From an uncultured Acidiferrobacteraceae bacterium (GTDB lineage: Bacteria > Pseudomonadota > Gammaproteobacteria > Arenicellales > UBA868), in contig CAJXWH010000004.1 in NCBI GenBank assembly GCA_913062915.1, positions 1 to 41,777 on the forward strand: a stretch of DNA of 41,777 nucleotides. Direction: 5' to 3'. Below the pieces are notes generated by a model. That model had not been told where the DNA came from, did not search any database, and was given only the letters and a program-made list of their open reading frames with translations. Below are positions 12,381-20,280 of this stretch, piece by piece; position 1 is the stretch's first letter, and each line of letters starts with the position of its first letter. Both the position numbers and the translations under genes were made by a program.

Positions 12381-12701
12381 TCACGGGAGTTCTATCTCGA
12401 GGCTGAGGATTAGTGAACTCCAAGACTTGCCATGACTGTCGAGATTAAGCGATTCATTGACACCACCCTCCAGGGCCTCATCAAGCACAAAGTTGAGTCC
12501 ACTAAGTTGCGGCAGGAGATAACGTTGAATCGGTCCGGTAAACAATGCCCCAAAAGTTTGCTTTAGGCGTTCGGGTGTAATCTGGTCAACTAAAATAGAG
12601 TAGTGTTTAGCATCGAAAGCAAAAACCGATACATTAGATCGGTTGCCCTTGTCGCCTGCCCGGGCATGAGCAATTTCTCGAAGTGGAATCCGCTGAGTCA
12701 T
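12381..12701 (-). CDS. AtuA C-terminal (ferredoxin-fold-like) domain protein, encoded separately
   Basis: REIAHARAGDKGNRSNVSVFAFD...LSGLNFVLDEALEGGVNESLNLDSHGKSWSSLILSLEI; ATG at 12701 overlaps the 3' end of the upstream AtuA gene by 4 nt. Confidence 0.85.
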   Translation of the reverse strand: MTQRIPLREIAHARAGDKGNRSNVSVFAFDAKHYSILVDQITPERLKQTFGALFTGPIQRYLLPQLSGLNFVLDEALEGGVNESLNLDSHGKSWSSLILSLEIELP

Positions 12702-14038
12702 ACGTCGAGAATGTCTAAACGAGGTGAAATTTGAGCGCGATCGACAAAAGTAGAGTAGGTCAAGACGCTTGACTGGATGTTGCCACGGTATCCTCCTCCA
12801 CCCGCTGGGCCACAGCAGAGCAGGGACTCGACTTCCCACAGCAGATTTTCAGCCTCGTTACGGTCGGGTGTCCGGATGGCGCAGCGGATGCGAACGTCTT
12901 TTGAGCCCATCTCGTATTGACCTAAAGTGTGGTGCAAAGATGACACACCAATGAGATCGCAGCGCAGCGTTGTCCGAATACCGTGCACGTGCCGCAAACG
13001 TTCGTCTACGATCTCATTTGCCATACGAGCGCGTTCTTCTGCACCGGGCCCGGCATATGAGAGCTCCGCTTCGCCCAAGAAGCCGCCATCAAACGCAACG
13101 GTTACCTTTAGCTCCTGCGGCCGTTCCGTCCCATGGGCGCCTGAAATGGAAACTCGATTTACACCCTCAGAGTTAAGTCTCGCCGACGAAAAATCAGCCG
13201 TGACGTCCGGTGTGAGATATCGCGCAGGGTCGTGTACTTCATAAAGTAACTGTTCCTTCACGGTGCGCAGGTCGACACAACCCCCCGTTCCAGTAAGCTT
13301 GGTGATGATAGCGGTGCCGTCGGGTTGGACTTCGGCAATTGGAAACCCGACAGACACAAGATCGTCAACATTCTTGTACCCCGGATCGGCGAAATAACCC
13401 CCAGTGACCTGGGCTGCGCATTCCATTAAATGTCCAATCATCGTGCCTGCACCTGCCCGCATCCAGTCGTTGTATTGCCATTCGAAGAAATGCTGGAGGG
13501 GAGCAAGGAAAAGGGATGGGTCGGCAACCCGCCCAGTGATCACGACATCGGCTTTTTGTTGCAGGGCCTGAACGATGCCCTCAGCACCCAGGTAGGCGTT
13601 GGCACCAACCACCGGTTGTTCGAAGTCCTTAAGCGTGCAACCTGGTTCGAAAAGGCGGGTGTTGTCGTTCAGCAAATCGGTGACGTCATCCCCCGTAACA
13701 ACCGCAATTCGCATTCCCTGCAGCCCGAGCTTTCCCGCAACGTTGGCGACCAAATTTCCTGCTGCCAGAGGATTTGCGGCACCCATATTTGTGATAAGGC
13801 AGGTATTATTCGCGCGACAGAACGGCAGAATGGTTCGCATACGTGTTTCCAGGAGCGGGTTATAACCCAGAGATGGGTCAACGAGTTTCTCTCGAAGCCC
13901 TGCGGCCAACGTTCGCTCGCCGAGACATTCAAATACGATCGCATTTAGGTTGCCTCTCCGAGCAAGGTCGACAGCGGGGTCTAAGCGGTCAGCAGAGAAT
14001 CCCGCCCCTGTGCCCATTCGAAAAACCTCAGAATTCAT
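12698..14038 (-). CDS. atuA: Acyclic terpene utilization AtuA family protein (DUF1446 N-terminal region)
   Basis: 446 aa; GAGFSADRLDPAVDLARRGNLNAIVFECLGERTLA, NMGAANPLAAGNLVANVAGKLGLQGMRIAVVTGDDV, VITGRVADPSLFLAPL. Confidence 0.88.
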   Translation of the reverse strand: MNSEVFRMGTGAGFSADRLDPAVDLARRGNLNAIVFECLGERTLAAGLREKLVDPSLGYNPLLETRMRTILPFCRANNTCLITNMGAANPLAAGNLVANVAGKLGLQGMRIAVVTGDDVTDLLNDNTRLFEPGCTLKDFEQPVVGANAYLGAEGIVQALQQKADVVITGRVADPSLFLAPLQHFFEWQYNDWMRAGAGTMIGHLMECAAQVTGGYFADPGYKNVDDLVSVGFPIAEVQPDGTAIITKLTGTGGCVDLRTVKEQLLYEVHDPARYLTPDVTADFSSARLNSEGVNRVSISGAHGTERPQELKVTVAFDGGFLGEAELSYAGPGAEERARMANEIVDERLRHVHGIRTTLRCDLIGVSSLHHTLGQYEMGSKDVRIRCAIRTPDRNEAENLLWEVESLLCCGPAGGGGYRGNIQSSVLTYSTFVDRAQISPRLDILDV

Positions 14039-14618: not shown

Positions 14619-15506
14619 TCAAATGAGCCCTAACCCGTCAAGTGCAGACCGAATGATCGATTGCTGGGATGCTTCGGGCATCGTCATTGGTTTTCGAGGA
14701 AGACCGGCGGGAATTTTCTGAAGCGTTTGGGCGTATTTTGTGCAGGCAGGAAGGTTGTGCCCATTAATCGCATTCCACAATCGAAGAATTCGTTCATGCA
14801 GATCAACCGCTTTATCTAACTGACCTGCAGCTGCGGCTTCCCAAAGCGCCACGCTGGGTCCTGGCGCAGCCGCAAGAATCGCTGCAATTGCGCCATGCGC
14901 ACCGAGCGCGTAACAGGAGTAGAGCAGCGCATCAACAGCGCTGAAGACAAGGTGATCGGCGTCGGCCATGATCATCAGGTCAGCGAAGAGTTTCATGTCA
15001 CCTGCGCTTTGTTTTACCCCAATTACGCCTGGAATTTCTCGCATTAACCGACAAAGCAGTTCGGGTTCGATATAGCTCCAAGGTACAACGTTATAAATGA
15101 TCACCGGCATGCCCGTTTCTTCTGTGACAGCACGGAAATGTTCAATTGTGGCGGAATCGGTCGGTTTGAATAGATAATGAACCGGCGTGACCTGCAGCGC
15201 TGCGACGCCGGATTGTTGAACCATTTGACCGCGTTTGATGGCATCACGGGTCGAGTCGGTAATGATTCCCGCAATTAGCGGTACGCGGCCGTTTACGGCG
15301 TCCACAGCGGTGTCTACCAGTTTTACGTATTCGTCAAGCGCCAACGTGTGGCCCTCGCCCGTGCTGCCACCTACAGCAATTCCATGCACACCGTTGCTGA
15401 TAAGCCAGTCAATTTGTAGTGACACTGCGCTGAAATCTATCTCGCCCGCTGTATCGAATGGGGTTGTGGCGGGAACGATTATTCCCTTCAATTTCTGTTT
15501 TGACAT
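14619..15506 (-). CDS. Dihydrodipicolinate synthase (DapA) family lyase
   Basis: 295 aa; KGIIVPATTPFDTAGEIDF, AVGGSTGEGHTLALDEYVKLV, VIIYNVVP, VIGVKQSAGD (Schiff-base Lys). Confidence 0.92.
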   Translation of the reverse strand: MSKQKLKGIIVPATTPFDTAGEIDFSAVSLQIDWLISNGVHGIAVGGSTGEGHTLALDEYVKLVDTAVDAVNGRVPLIAGIITDSTRDAIKRGQMVQQSGVAALQVTPVHYLFKPTDSATIEHFRAVTEETGMPVIIYNVVPWSYIEPELLCRLMREIPGVIGVKQSAGDMKLFADLMIMADADHLVFSAVDALLYSCYALGAHGAIAAILAAAPGPSVALWEAAAAGQLDKAVDLHERILRLWNAINGHNLPACTKYAQTLQKIPAGLPRKPMTMPEASQQSIIRSALDGLGLI

Positions 15507-15561: not shown

Positions 15562-16323
15562 TTATCGTCTAACGCGAAAGTCATTCTCCCCGGAAAGATC
15601 AGTACCACGCATTAGGAACAATGTTCTTTCTGTGTGATCAAGTAGCCCCTTTTCCGAGGCTTGGCGTGAGGCCAGATCACGGTCGAAAACAGATGTTGTT
15701 GGCATGTACCGCAGTGTCATCCCGCGTCGCGAATGCGGCGACCGATTTTCCTTTGATCCATGCATCATGTAGATGTCGTGTAAGGAGATCTGTCCTGCCT
15801 CAAGAGTTAAATCGATAGCTTCGTCTTCCGAGTATTCGTTCGGAAGCAATTCCTGATTTAAGGTCAAGTTGGGATCGGAATTGATTCTATGCTGACGCAA
15901 GGTTTGCTTCTTATGAGAGCCCGGAATAAATCTTAGGCATCCATTGTCCACGGTCGCATTGTCGATTGCCATCCATACACTGCAAGTGGCAAGTGGGCGG
16001 ATGGGCCAATATTCGCCGTCTTGATGCCAGGGTGTTGCCTGGCCATCAAGGGCCGGTTTGGCAAAGAAACTGGAATTCCAAAGTGCAAAATCTGATCCTA
16101 TGACCTGTTCAACCATATCCAGAATTTTGGGTAACCGAGCGTAGTTTAGAAAACTTAAGTCATAGGCGAGAATATTCGGGCAATAATTACGAAACTCAGG
16201 GTGGGTTTGTATCAATCGGCCATGGTCCCTGCGGATATTAGCCAGGACATCATCTGGAAGGCGATAGTTCGGTATGGTGTAACCATTTTCTTGATATTGA
16301 AAAACTTGATCATCAGTTAACAT
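15562..16323 (-). CDS. Phytanoyl-CoA dioxygenase (PhyH) family protein
   Basis: TPWHQDGEYWPI HxD motif, DNGCLRFIPGSHKK, MMHGSKENRSPHSRRGMTLRYMPT; ATG at 16323 preceded by GGTGGAG. Confidence 0.9.
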   Translation of the reverse strand: MLTDDQVFQYQENGYTIPNYRLPDDVLANIRRDHGRLIQTHPEFRNYCPNILAYDLSFLNYARLPKILDMVEQVIGSDFALWNSSFFAKPALDGQATPWHQDGEYWPIRPLATCSVWMAIDNATVDNGCLRFIPGSHKKQTLRQHRINSDPNLTLNQELLPNEYSEDEAIDLTLEAGQISLHDIYMMHGSKENRSPHSRRGMTLRYMPTTSVFDRDLASRQASEKGLLDHTERTLFLMRGTDLSGENDFRVRR

Positions 16324-16384
16324 GGGTATCTCCACCTACACGGGTCAAACAAATGGTCAGAGTTGGTTTATTAACCGCGGGCCA

Positions 16385-19072
16385 TTACAGCGAAACGCCG
16401 ACGGTTCCTCTGGTCACCTGAAAATTACTGTATCCGCGGTGGTGCAATTTAGGGATATGTCGCCGCGTAATAGTATGCTCTATTTTTGTCATCAAGAAGT
16501 CGCTGGGCTTATCCATAAGTTGAGGTAAAACAAAATCCAGATCATCAAAAAATTTGTCACTGTATTCATTTTGATCGCTGAACTGTAATACTGGAACTAA
16601 AGGATGGGATGCAACGGGCATACCGTTGGTATACATTAAAATAATCTCTACTCCAGTACCTCCGAGTCCGGTCAAAATTTCGGTGGTGCTGGTTGTCGGA
16701 GTCGCCATCACAAAACATCCGTTACTGGATGGATGTGCGCCATAGTCAAGATTGACCGACCAGCTTTGCTCGTCGGTTAAAAGTCGTTCCATGAAGACGG
16801 TCGAGTCAACAATGCTGGCATTTTCGGGGACGACAATTGTTGACCCGGATACCACCAAGTCGCGTATCAGCCCCGCCAACGCCCGAGCCGTGATTTCGCT
16901 GATGGATCCTTGGGTCATGAGACCGATTTTGAGGTCTGCAATAGAGCCCGTTTTACGTTGTACGGGGGAATCGAGAGCGACCCGAAACTGTGTTTCAACT
17001 TTTTTAGCCACTCGATCGAGACCGCCATCAAGTTGAACACTGGCCCAGTCAAAGCGCGTCGGATTTAATCCCTTACTTAACAGATCATGTCGAATGGCGT
17101 CATTGTGAGTTCGCTCGCACCCATGTTCGAGCAGTACTGCGTGTGTGATGAACGGGTGTTGTAGGTGCCCGCTGACGATATTCAAGAATAATTCTTCTGC
17201 ATTCGCGCTGCCACAGCCCTCTGTATGAACAAGCGCAATATAACGATTAACCCTAGCTAATACCGGCTCGTTTTCACGTGCCACATTTAATTTGTTGGCA
17301 ATGAGTTGGGCGACCTGTCCTGAGCAAAGGCTGGTCGGCATAATCAAGCCGACATTGTCACTCGTGACCCCATTTTCTAATTCGTAGCCTGAAAATGACA
17401 AATTTCTCTTGTTACCGGCACCGACATCAATCGGGCCAACAGGTGTTGAGATTGAATTAGTGTGGCGTGTTTCCAGAGAAGATGATTGTTGCCAATTGCG
17501 CCACAGTTGTACCTGCGAATGGCCAGCAAGTTCTCCCTTGCTTTTTTCGCCCGAAGCGACTCGGGTAGTAAGAGCAAATGTCTCGTGAGTGAGACTTTCC
17601 ATGCTCTCGCCATCGTTATAACGGCCTGCATTTACATCCATTTCATTGGATAGCATCTCGAAGCGCCCAGTAGTCGTGACAAATTTCAAAGTGGGCACGA
17701 ATGGAAAATTGGTGATGGAGCCGTTTCCGGTAATAAATAGAATCATATTGCACCCGGAAGCCACTTGCCCTGCAATGCTCTCGAGATCGTTGCCAGGGCT
17801 GTCCATAAAGTAGTACCCGCTGTCAGCCATTAGAGCCCCGTAGTCAATGACAGCATCCAGACGAACTTCGGGGTCCTTTTTCCTTGCGGCCCCGATAGAT
17901 TTCAACGCAATGTTGTACAGACCTCGGAAATTATTACCACCGCTTGGATTTCCCTCAGCGCTCGCGCCATGGTTTGCGGCGTATTGCTTAAAATTCTTAA
18001 TTTTCTGGAGAAACAGTTGTGCAGTGGGAAGATCTTTCACGTTACTGAGCACATAAGACTCCGCGCCGATTAACTCATCGGTTTCGGCAAGATTGGCCTT
18101 GCCACCGCGGCGGATGACTTCTTTTGCTACAGATCCCGCAAGTGGGTTACCGGAAATACCCGAAAACGCATCAGACCCTCCGCATTGGAGCGCCAGACTA
18201 ATATTTTCTATAGATTCCTCTGTCCGAACTTGTTTACCGACAATGGGGATCCATTGGTCGATTGTCTTAATTGCATCGATGAGCCCCCGATCGCTGGATC
18301 CCTCAATTCGGAAGAATTCATGCAACGTATGTTCCAGTGGGTAATCGTTATCCAATACGAATTGTTTGAGATCGCCCGCCGTAAACGTACCATCTCCATA
18401 ATCTACAACCTGGACTGCACCCACATTTGGATGGACCATGAAGCCGGCTAGGGTTCGCATCACTAGAGAAAAATTATTTGGCGGCAAAGTGCCATCACCT
18501 TCTGTATGAGTGACCGCAATCACACCATCAATGTTCTCCCCGAGGTTTTGTGATGAATATTTCGACTCAATTTGGCGGGCAAAGGCAGCGGATTTAACTG
18601 TTACTGCGAGTATCACAATAAAGTTTCGAGTGCCTACACCCCGCCGCCCTGAACGCCGATATCCAAAAAAGGTCTCTATCTCACTATTTCGTGGGACTTG
18701 CTGTCCTGGAGAAAAGCTCGTTGCATCAATCTGATGCTCCACCATGACATCGAGAAAGTTGGGCTTGTGTGGCAGATCGAAGTCGATGTTTCGTTGCCCC
18801 AATGCAATAAGAATCTTTTCGTTGCACACATATTCACCGGGAAAAAGATCTCGTATGGCAGTTCCGAAGGGTAATGCCCAAGAGAGAAGCGGTTCACCAG
18901 ATCCGATCGGAATCAAAACAAAACGATGTCCTTCGAGTATAGTGTGCTGAATCTTGAACTGTCCCTTGGGGCCTTCGATAAACGTGTCGGGCTCAATGCG
19001 GTGGGTAGCAATGGCTACGTTATCGGCACTGCTAGCCAAACGGGCAATGTCATTAAGTTGAACCTTGGCCAT
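16385..19072 (-). CDS. UxaA/altronate-galactarate dehydratase-like protein with an apparent second, SAF-less copy fused C-terminally
   Basis: 895 aa; N-terminal SAF-like region (NVAIATHRIEPDTFI...), FFGYRRSGRRGVGTRNFIVIL, LQCGGSDAFSGISGNPLAG, then a second FSGYELENGVTSDNVGLIMPTSLCSGQVA...VHTEGCG...LEHGCERTHND. Confidence 0.85.
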   Translation of the reverse strand: MAKVQLNDIARLASSADNVAIATHRIEPDTFIEGPKGQFKIQHTILEGHRFVLIPIGSGEPLLSWALPFGTAIRDLFPGEYVCNEKILIALGQRNIDFDLPHKPNFLDVMVEHQIDATSFSPGQQVPRNSEIETFFGYRRSGRRGVGTRNFIVILAVTVKSAAFARQIESKYSSQNLGENIDGVIAVTHTEGDGTLPPNNFSLVMRTLAGFMVHPNVGAVQVVDYGDGTFTAGDLKQFVLDNDYPLEHTLHEFFRIEGSSDRGLIDAIKTIDQWIPIVGKQVRTEESIENISLALQCGGSDAFSGISGNPLAGSVAKEVIRRGGKANLAETDELIGAESYVLSNVKDLPTAQLFLQKIKNFKQYAANHGASAEGNPSGGNNFRGLYNIALKSIGAARKKDPEVRLDAVIDYGALMADSGYYFMDSPGNDLESIAGQVASGCNMILFITGNGSITNFPFVPTLKFVTTTGRFEMLSNEMDVNAGRYNDGESMESLTHETFALTTRVASGEKSKGELAGHSQVQLWRNWQQSSSLETRHTNSISTPVGPIDVGAGNKRNLSFSGYELENGVTSDNVGLIMPTSLCSGQVAQLIANKLNVARENEPVLARVNRYIALVHTEGCGSANAEELFLNIVSGHLQHPFITHAVLLEHGCERTHNDAIRHDLLSKGLNPTRFDWASVQLDGGLDRVAKKVETQFRVALDSPVQRKTGSIADLKIGLMTQGSISEITARALAGLIRDLVVSGSTIVVPENASIVDSTVFMERLLTDEQSWSVNLDYGAHPSSNGCFVMATPTTSTTEILTGLGGTGVEIILMYTNGMPVASHPLVPVLQFSDQNEYSDKFFDDLDFVLPQLMDKPSDFLMTKIEHTITRRHIPKLHHRGYSNFQVTRGTVGVSL

Positions 19073-19248: not shown

Positions 19249-20280
19249 CTAGCGAGTAATGCCTAGATTCTCTGCTGTAGAGACGATTTGTTGCCACGTG
19301 TTATCGTCGAGCGTTATTCCGTTTTTGCGCCGTTCATGTTCTGTTTTTCGTTCCGGTTCGCCTGGCAACTGGACGGGACGTTCGAGGTCAGCTGGTGTCG
19401 ATTGACTGACCCAATCCGCGAATCGACTTGTTTCAGAATCCACATAATCCCGATCAGCAAAGACGCCCGGATCAAGAAGAATCGACAACATACCATTTGA
19501 CAGGGCGGTAACACCCGGAGCATGGCAGCCACCACCGCCAATCGCGCCAGCAAGGAGATCAGTCATGATGGCGAGACCAGAACCTTTATAACCCCCCATG
19601 GGCATCAGCGCGCCGGGTGGCTCGGTATAAAGAGCGGCCGGATCACGTGTCGGTGTTCCGTTCGCGTCAAGAAGTGTATCCGGCGGGAGTTCCGCGTTTT
19701 TATTAAGCGCGACTTTGACCTTTCCTTCCGCAAGTTTAGATGTTGCGGCATCAAAAATTATCGGGTCTCCATTTTTTTTCGGCATCCCAATGGATATAGG
19801 ATTGGTCGCATAGCGGCCATTTGTGCCGCCAAATGGAGCAACTAACGTTGATGCGCCCGAAGTGTTTACAAAATGGAGGGAAGCTTGACCTGCCTTAGCG
19901 GCTTTTTCTGTCCAATCGCCAATCCGACCGAGATGACCGACGTTCCCTACACTGACCATTGCAATCCCCGATTTGCTTGCTTTCCGAATTCCCTCGTCGA
20001 TGACTTGATTTCCAATGGTTTGGCCGAATCCTTTGTTTCCGTGAAACAGCGTAATTGTCTCATTCTCGAAAATGACAGAAGCCGTTTGATTGGGGATCAC
20101 ATCTCCTTTTCGCCAGAACTCGATATACTGTGAAATCCGAATAACGCCGTGAGAATCGTGACCGGTCAGATTGGCGCGAACGAGAAGTCGGCTGATATTC
20201 CTTGCTTCGGTGTTATCGCAGCCAATCGCGGCGAAGATTTTTCTGGAAAACTCTTCCAGTTCCGTAAATACAATGTTCAT
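19249..20280 (-). CDS. Ldh family oxidoreductase (malate/L-lactate dehydrogenase-like), second paralog
   Basis: 343 aa; LLVRANLTGHDSHGVIRISQYIEFWRKGDVIPNQ, HLGRIGDWTEKAAKAG, MPMGGYKGSGLAIMTDLLAGAIGGGG. Confidence 0.92.
   Translation of the reverse strand: MNIVFTELEEFSRKIFAAIGCDNTEARNISRLLVRANLTGHDSHGVIRISQYIEFWRKGDVIPNQTASVIFENETITLFHGNKGFGQTIGNQVIDEGIRKASKSGIAMVSVGNVGHLGRIGDWTEKAAKAGQASLHFVNTSGASTLVAPFGGTNGRYATNPISIGMPKKNGDPIIFDAATSKLAEGKVKVALNKNAELPPDTLLDANGTPTRDPAALYTEPPGALMPMGGYKGSGLAIMTDLLAGAIGGGGCHAPGVTALSNGMLSILLDPGVFADRDYVDSETSRFADWVSQSTPADLERPVQLPGEPERKTEHERRKNGITLDDNTWQQIVSTAENLGITR

Follow-up and report, generated by a model that had tools for sequence, protein, structure and literature searches.

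Complementary motif sets in a two-copy UxaA/GarD-family protein suggest a composite active site derived from a fused dimer

The window, i.e. the whole 41,777-nucleotide stretch of DNA analysed here (contig CAJXWH010000004.1 of an uncultured marine Acidiferrobacteraceae bacterium), carries on its minus strand an open reading frame (16385-19072) that starts with ATG, contains no internal stops and codes for a protein of 895 aa; the plus strand over the same interval is packed with stops. A preliminary description of this DNA had given the reading frame and its length, which were borne out, without naming the strand. The neighbouring genes on the same strand code for an Ldh_2-family dehydrogenase, a PhyH-family oxygenase, a DHDPS-type lyase, an AtuA plus AtuA-ferredoxin-like ORF, an SDR and a second Ldh_2 protein, and genes for two HpaI aldolases, enolase-family dehydratases and an IlvD/EDD protein are located nearby (Table 1). 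AtuA and the AtuA-ferredoxin-like domain are encoded in overlapping separate ORFs (12381-14038), as is also the case in the relative L021.

Table 1. Features of the two-copy gene and its immediate neighbours (residues refer to the 895-aa protein).
Feature	Residues	Position	Strand	Basis or remark
Ldh_2 (malate/L-lactate/ureidoglycolate dehydrogenase-family) gene, upstream		19249..20280	-	domain matches, synteny
Two-copy UxaA/GarD-family gene	895 aa + stop	16385..19072	-	ORF, Pfam, homologues
SAF-like (beta-clip) N-terminal domain	1-110	18743..19072	-	phmmer to 3k3s, fold match, alignment
Copy 1 GD_AH_second domain	135-270	18263..18670	-	strand-leading motifs kept, three Cys gone
Copy 1 R140 ... 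T148-R149-N150	140-150	18623..18655	-	just before beta-1; strand 151-156 in model
Copy 1 D182-G183	182-183	18524..18529	-	start of beta-2 (strand 183-188); lost in copy 2
Copy 1 HTEGDG	189-194	18491..18508	-	no second Cys; D or G there in every two-copy homologue
Copy 1 P215-N216	215-216	18425..18430	-	just before beta-3 (strand 217-224); N lost in copy 2
Copy 1 DYGDGT	224-229	18386..18403	-	GxGCE motif lost
Copy 1 GD_AH_C domain, intact	289-527	17492..18208	-	Pfam; 34/47 near-invariant family columns kept
Copy 1 QCGGSD (within LQCGGSD 295-301)	296-301	18170..18187	-	fourth family Cys, C297
Inter-copy linker, variable	528-558	17399..17491	-	highest dN of all regions; low identity
Copy 2 GD_AH_second domain, three Cys kept	559-690	17003..17398	-	profile matches; dN/dS 0-0.07
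Copy 2 SLCSGQ (C583)	581-586	17315..17332	-	after beta-1; strand 574-579 in model
Copy 2 HTEGCG (C620)	616-621	17210..17227	-	after beta-2; strand 610-613 in model
Copy 2 EHGCER (C652, E653)	649-654	17111..17128	-	after beta-3; strand 642-649 in model
Copy 2 GD_AH_C domain, degenerate and shortened	713-895	16388..16936	-	3.4e-6; 6/47 near-invariant columns
Copy 2 MTQGSISE, in place of QCGGSD	719-726	16895..16918	-	motif search, alignment, profile comparison
PhyH-family oxygenase gene, downstream, 49 nt away		15562..16335	-	Pfam, synteny
DHDPS/KDG-aldolase-type lyase gene		14619..15506	-	domain matches, synteny

The 895-aa protein contains two copies of the enzyme core of the UxaA/GarD superfamily (COG2721, D-altronate/galactarate dehydratase), with which it shares the SAF, second and C domains, the QCGGSD motif and the three Cys motifs of domain 2. 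Pfam matched GD_AH_C (7e-82) and GD_AH_second (1e-35) over two stretches each, and copy 2 alone passed the curated cut-off of GD_AH_second (3e-12, 47.2 bits, cut-off 27.3 bits) and barely passed that of GD_AH_C (3.4e-6, 27.0 bits, cut-off 26.8 bits). Profile comparison of copy 2 (350 residues) with E. coli GarD and UxaA and a Ruegeria homologue gave a probability of 97.5 (E=9e-12) over 290 columns, and direct BLASTP of copy 1 against copy 2 a weak match (1e-6). The two copies read in the preliminary description, which had set alignment of the C-terminal ~340 aa to both UxaA/GarD domains as the point to be checked beforehand, are thus confirmed, as these residues do align. Residues 17-511 align with E. 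coli GarD at 25% identity (E=2e-31), and the predicted model matches the GarD structure 6u7l (E=1e-22, TM 0.60 by target); GarD differs in that the window's protein has two copies per chain, with the four Cys divided 1:3. With 173.3 bits against a cut-off of 730.85, the protein failed the galactarate dehydratase equivalog TIGR03248.

The N-terminus aligns with the altronate hydrolase fragment 3k3s (phmmer, E=1e-4), and its predicted fold matches the same structure with a TM of 0.87-0.82 by target; the Pfam SAF model stayed below threshold. The sequence match and the predicted fold together indicate the SAF/beta-clip domain that the preliminary description had read here. Residues 81-84 of this domain (18821-18832) are an invariant Y81-x-C83-N84 across the two-copy proteins, at a site where most single-copy UxaA/GarD proteins have HxHxHN, so that the two-copy form has an extra conserved Cys and has lost the His motif. 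A first AlphaFold2 model from a four-row alignment reached a pLDDT of 31.9, and a second one from seven rows a pLDDT of 51 and a pTM of 0.46, with moderate confidence for both domain-2 regions and the SAF domain and low confidence for the copy-2 C-domain (702-895) and the relative placement of the copies. The tail of the fold search (NifEN, UDP-GlcNAc epimerases and DPOR-like proteins, E ~1e-3 and worse) was dismissed as Rossmann-like background of a weak model.

Motif search found all seven motifs listed in the preliminary description at their residues, and the division of the conserved Cys between the copies is complete: C297 is present only in copy 1, and C583, C620 and C652 only in copy 2. 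By alignment, these four family Cys correspond to C144, C179, C215 and C288 of E. coli GarD and to C132, C166, C199 and C264 of UxaA. The 1:3 division holds without exception across five divergent two-copy lineages (seven full-length members aligned), none of which has all four Cys inside one copy, the full set being present only across the pair. Cys conservation among homologues of this architecture, raised in the preliminary description as possibly random, is therefore invariant. With SuyB-like rows excluded, single-copy relatives have the three domain-2 Cys in 31/31 cases, and every protein aligned has the QCGGSD Cys. The C-domain is divided as well, as copy 1 keeps 34/47 and copy 2 only 6/47 near-invariant columns; in copy 2, QCGGSD is replaced and the ETxE and PSPGN...KSLG segments are absent.

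The complementary loss proposed in the preliminary description is real for the Cys and QCGGSD motifs and was incomplete as described, since a second, non-Cys set of motifs in domain 2 had been missed. R140, TRN 148-150, D182-G183 and P215-N216 are all kept by copy 1 in every lineage, and no lineage retains the copy-2 equivalents of R140, T148, R149, D182, G183 and N216, that of N150 surviving only in the window's protein and that of P215 in some lineages. Conversely, copy 2 keeps C583, C620, G651-C652-E653 and Q680, all of which are lost in copy 1, except that the G651 equivalent is still found in 3/5 copy-1 sequences. The beta-2 histidine (H189/H616) is kept in both copies. Among the near-invariant columns of domain 2 (conserved in 95% or more of single-copy relatives), eight are kept by copy 1 only, six by copy 2 only, one by both and three by neither (Fisher one-sided p=0.025), and thresholds of 90% and 80% gave p=0.10 and 0.08, respectively, in the same direction. 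With the modelled strands (copy 1, 151-156, 183-188 and 217-224; copy 2, 574-579, 610-613, 642-649 and 674-678), 8/8 motif columns kept by copy 1 alone precede strands beta1-beta3 and 6/6 kept by copy 2 alone follow strands, a grouping of all 14 discriminating columns (p=0.0003) that was chosen after the data had been seen and uses strands from a moderate-confidence model. R140 lies some ten residues ahead of beta-1, and the other copy-1 motifs directly ahead of a strand or on its first residue.

Homologues with the same two-copy architecture, which the preliminary description had proposed to look for, were found in four MAG relatives (77-78% identity, one truncated at a contig end), in G043 (L006, 56% identity), which belongs to the same order but another family, and on plasmids of Rubrobacter indicoceani (NZ_CP031116, 48% identity) and Pantoea soli (NZ_CP032704, 39% identity). 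Both plasmid proteins are named 'UxaA family hydrolase' in RefSeq, an annotation that hides the unusual two-copy architecture and is corrected here. In total, seven full-length members have the layout SAF, second, C, second and degenerate C with complementary Cys, and the invariance of this group across lineages shows that it is not an accident of one genome. The two-copy form is rare: it was found in 6/109 genomes of the order, the window's own included; the samples of the class (369 genomes) and of the phylum (399 genomes) contained none except the window's own, and 289 sampled genomes of another class contained none. Of 72,556 plasmids, two had a copy-2 match over most of the length of copy 2. 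Split-gene forms, with copy 1 and copy 2 in separate genes, were absent from the 369 class and 399 phylum genomes sampled as well as from the 109 genomes of the order and the 289 of another class, in a search with copy 2 alone as the query that returned only two-copy or ordinary single-copy proteins. Scans of viral contigs to deepen the alignment added three single-copy relatives (L069, L070 and L072) and nothing else, and no further GD_AH_C protein is encoded in the window's assembly (86.6% complete).

Maximum-likelihood trees placed each of the two copies in one clade of its own with 100% support. Since each copy is a single, fully supported clade, the fusion arose most simply once, before the lineages parted, and the presence of the gene on plasmids in two phyla suggests that it has spread horizontally. 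The single-copy proteins nearest to both copies by trees and signatures are L026 (G092) and L037 (G577), which share PFG, TEGCG, D-G-CEQT, GPG(N/G)D and FQxWxAGKL with the two-copy proteins and differ from them in having one copy with a complete Cys set. Both adjoin nucleotide-sugar or radical-SAM genes, not genes for sugar-acid catabolism. The shared signatures appear to favour tandem duplication over fusion of two paralogues, and a joint clade of the two copies was not rejected (p-AU 0.335); the tandem duplication of the preliminary description therefore holds as a real and old duplication and fusion, its tandem character being favoured only. The comparisons used 31 single-copy references, mostly from Gammaproteobacteria, and five divergent two-copy lineages, a small number of independent cases.

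Both copies are under purifying selection, which is strongest in the copy-1 C-domain (dN/dS 0.014-0.06) and in domain 2 of copy 2 (0-0.07), weaker in the copy-2 C-domain (0.07-0.15) and accompanied by the highest dN of all regions in the linker between the copies. The low values of the copy-1 C-domain and copy-2 domain 2 agree with these two forming the surviving site.

The location and ligands of the iron site in the UxaA/GarD family are only proposed, and 6u7l is the one full-length structure solved. In the D-arabinonate dehydratase C785_RS13685, Cys 134, 173, 208 and 276 are the proposed iron ligands, the protein is brown with an EPR iron signal, and the reaction is described as abstraction of the alpha-proton followed by beta-elimination (Watanabe et al. 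2019, PMC6336799). According to the same report, the four Cys are conserved through the superfamily except in SuyAB and were fitted to common iron-binding sites. All four lie in one copy in this enzyme, unlike in the window's protein, and the sections of PMC6336799 drawn on here describe no fused or two-copy form. By analogy with the D-arabinonate dehydratase (PMC6336799), we infer that the fused protein would depend on iron.

Our preferred reading, which we consider likely, is that the protein is a fused dimer of an iron-dependent acid-sugar dehydratase of the UxaA/GarD superfamily in which one composite, trans-derived iron site has been kept. Its single-copy ancestor would have been a homodimer whose two active sites were identical and built in trans, the three-Cys edge of one subunit's domain 2 facing the QCGGSD C-domain of its partner; after duplication and fusion, one of the two inter-subunit sites would have been retained. 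Copy 1 would provide the SAF domain, the strand-leading domain 2 motifs and the catalytic C-domain with C297, and copy 2 the three-Cys iron edge of domain 2 (C583, C620, C652, E653 and Q680), its own C-domain having presumably decayed into a scaffold. If the site were built in cis, from domain 2 and the C-domain of one copy, giving up one site should damage a single copy and spare its partner, whereas giving up a trans site should cost one copy its Cys edge and the other its C-domain. The loss pattern seen is the crossed one, which argues for a site built across the dimer. In the abstract on the E. coli GarD crystal structure the second domain is reportedly described as the dimer interface. 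We infer the trans geometry (from the conservation pattern), the 3+1 Cys iron binding, and the dehydratase activity and substrate of the fused protein. The idea of the preliminary description that one composite active site is assembled from two halves is the best-supported candidate mechanism for what would be a variant within a known superfamily.

The strongest competing explanation, unlikely in our judgement, is that copy 1 catalyses the reaction by itself and needs no three-Cys iron site, copy 2 being a separate iron-binding scaffold, a redox sensor or a regulatory domain. The sulfolactate sulfo-lyase SuyAB, of the same superfamily, likewise has its function split, but over two polypeptides. 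In SuyAB and other heteromeric members, the split runs between a small SAF subunit and the rest; in the window's protein, domain-2 and C-domain motifs are instead divided between two homologous copies, and all four Cys are kept. Two single-copy proteins, L019 and L020, which are SuyB-like by motif and absence of SAF and of putative function, have lost all three domain-2 Cys and kept CGESD, so these Cys can disappear together. The existence of a SuyB branch without these Cys, together with the placing of SuyAB outside the four-Cys rule (PMC6336799) and the almost complete C-domain of copy 1, means that copy 1 could in principle act alone. Copy 1 groups apart from the SuyB-like proteins, however, and has CGGSD, not CGESD, and the window's protein as a whole lacks the SuyB-like combination (three Cys absent, CGESD, grouping with SuyB-like proteins). 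Catalysis by copy 1 alone would also leave unexplained why the motifs missing from copy 2 are precisely the strand-leading ones retained by copy 1, and why E653 and Q680 were kept in copy 2 alongside the Cys.

Somewhat less likely again is a composite site formed between two chains, copy 1 of one pairing with copy 2 of another in a domain-swapped oligomer with one site per chain. The conservation pattern would be the same for intra-chain and inter-chain pairing, and the linker is variable and ~30 residues long; the fusion in itself, on the other hand, suggests pairing within the chain. We regard as improbable a bifunctional enzyme in which each copy has an altered active site of its own with a new activity: that both copies are under purifying selection and share the beta-2 histidine would fit, but each copy lacks what the other has, and the copy-2 C-domain, with its 6/47 near-invariant columns, misses whole segments. 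A pseudogene, chimeric assembly or frameshift artefact of the MAG, conceivable for a fragmented and incomplete genome (236 contigs), has a negligible probability, because the architecture and the split recur at 77, 56, 48 and 39% identity with synteny in four MAG contigs, length and architecture being equal in MAG contigs such as L021, L022 and L023 (synteny kept), in G043 and in two plasmid records described as complete sequences, and purifying selection acting throughout.

If the site is composite, the complementary residue sets of the fused enzyme indicate which residues share a site, and that this site is built from two protomers. In its broader form, to which we give slightly better than even weight, the iron site would be inter-subunit in the whole UxaA/GarD superfamily, and a single-site fused form would have arisen and been carried between phyla by mobile DNA. 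The protein would also be a clear-cut example of subunits fused and one of their two symmetric active sites given up. For the RNase Z long form (ELAC2), a two-domain fused chain derived from a homodimeric short enzyme, presumably by duplication and fusion, has also been described (PMC11996679); this is an analogy only, as fold and chemistry are unrelated to those of the window's protein.

The fused chain, with its one putative composite iron site, would probably dehydrate an alpha,beta-dihydroxy (sugar) acid to a 2-keto-3-deoxy acid, which would pass to the adjacent aldolases and dehydrogenases. The gene block around the two-copy gene is syntenic in four relatives. In G043 the gene adjoins those for an MFS transporter, a class II aldolase, an OYE, an SDR and an Ldh_2 protein, in Pantoea those for a GntR regulator, a FAH-family hydrolase and a 2-keto-3-deoxygluconate permease, and in Rubrobacter it is found near GntR, Nramp, Lut, four-carbon acid sugar kinase and PdxA genes. 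All that these four contexts have in common is general acid-sugar or hydroxy-acid catabolism. The neighbourhood is compatible with dehydration of an aldonic, an aldaric or a related hydroxy acid, which is the likely reaction, and the substrate is probably a sugar acid. The wider region 3013-36594 is a dense acid-sugar and hydroxy-acid catabolic island with three enolase-family dehydratases, an IlvD/EDD protein, two HpaI aldolases, the DHDPS-type lyase and two Ldh_2 proteins, and further contains RraA-like, FAH and proline-racemase-like genes, amidases, and MFS and EamA transporters. Moreover, an 812-aa transketolase-like protein encoded at 5-2443 combines E1-alpha and E1-beta type domains in a single chain.
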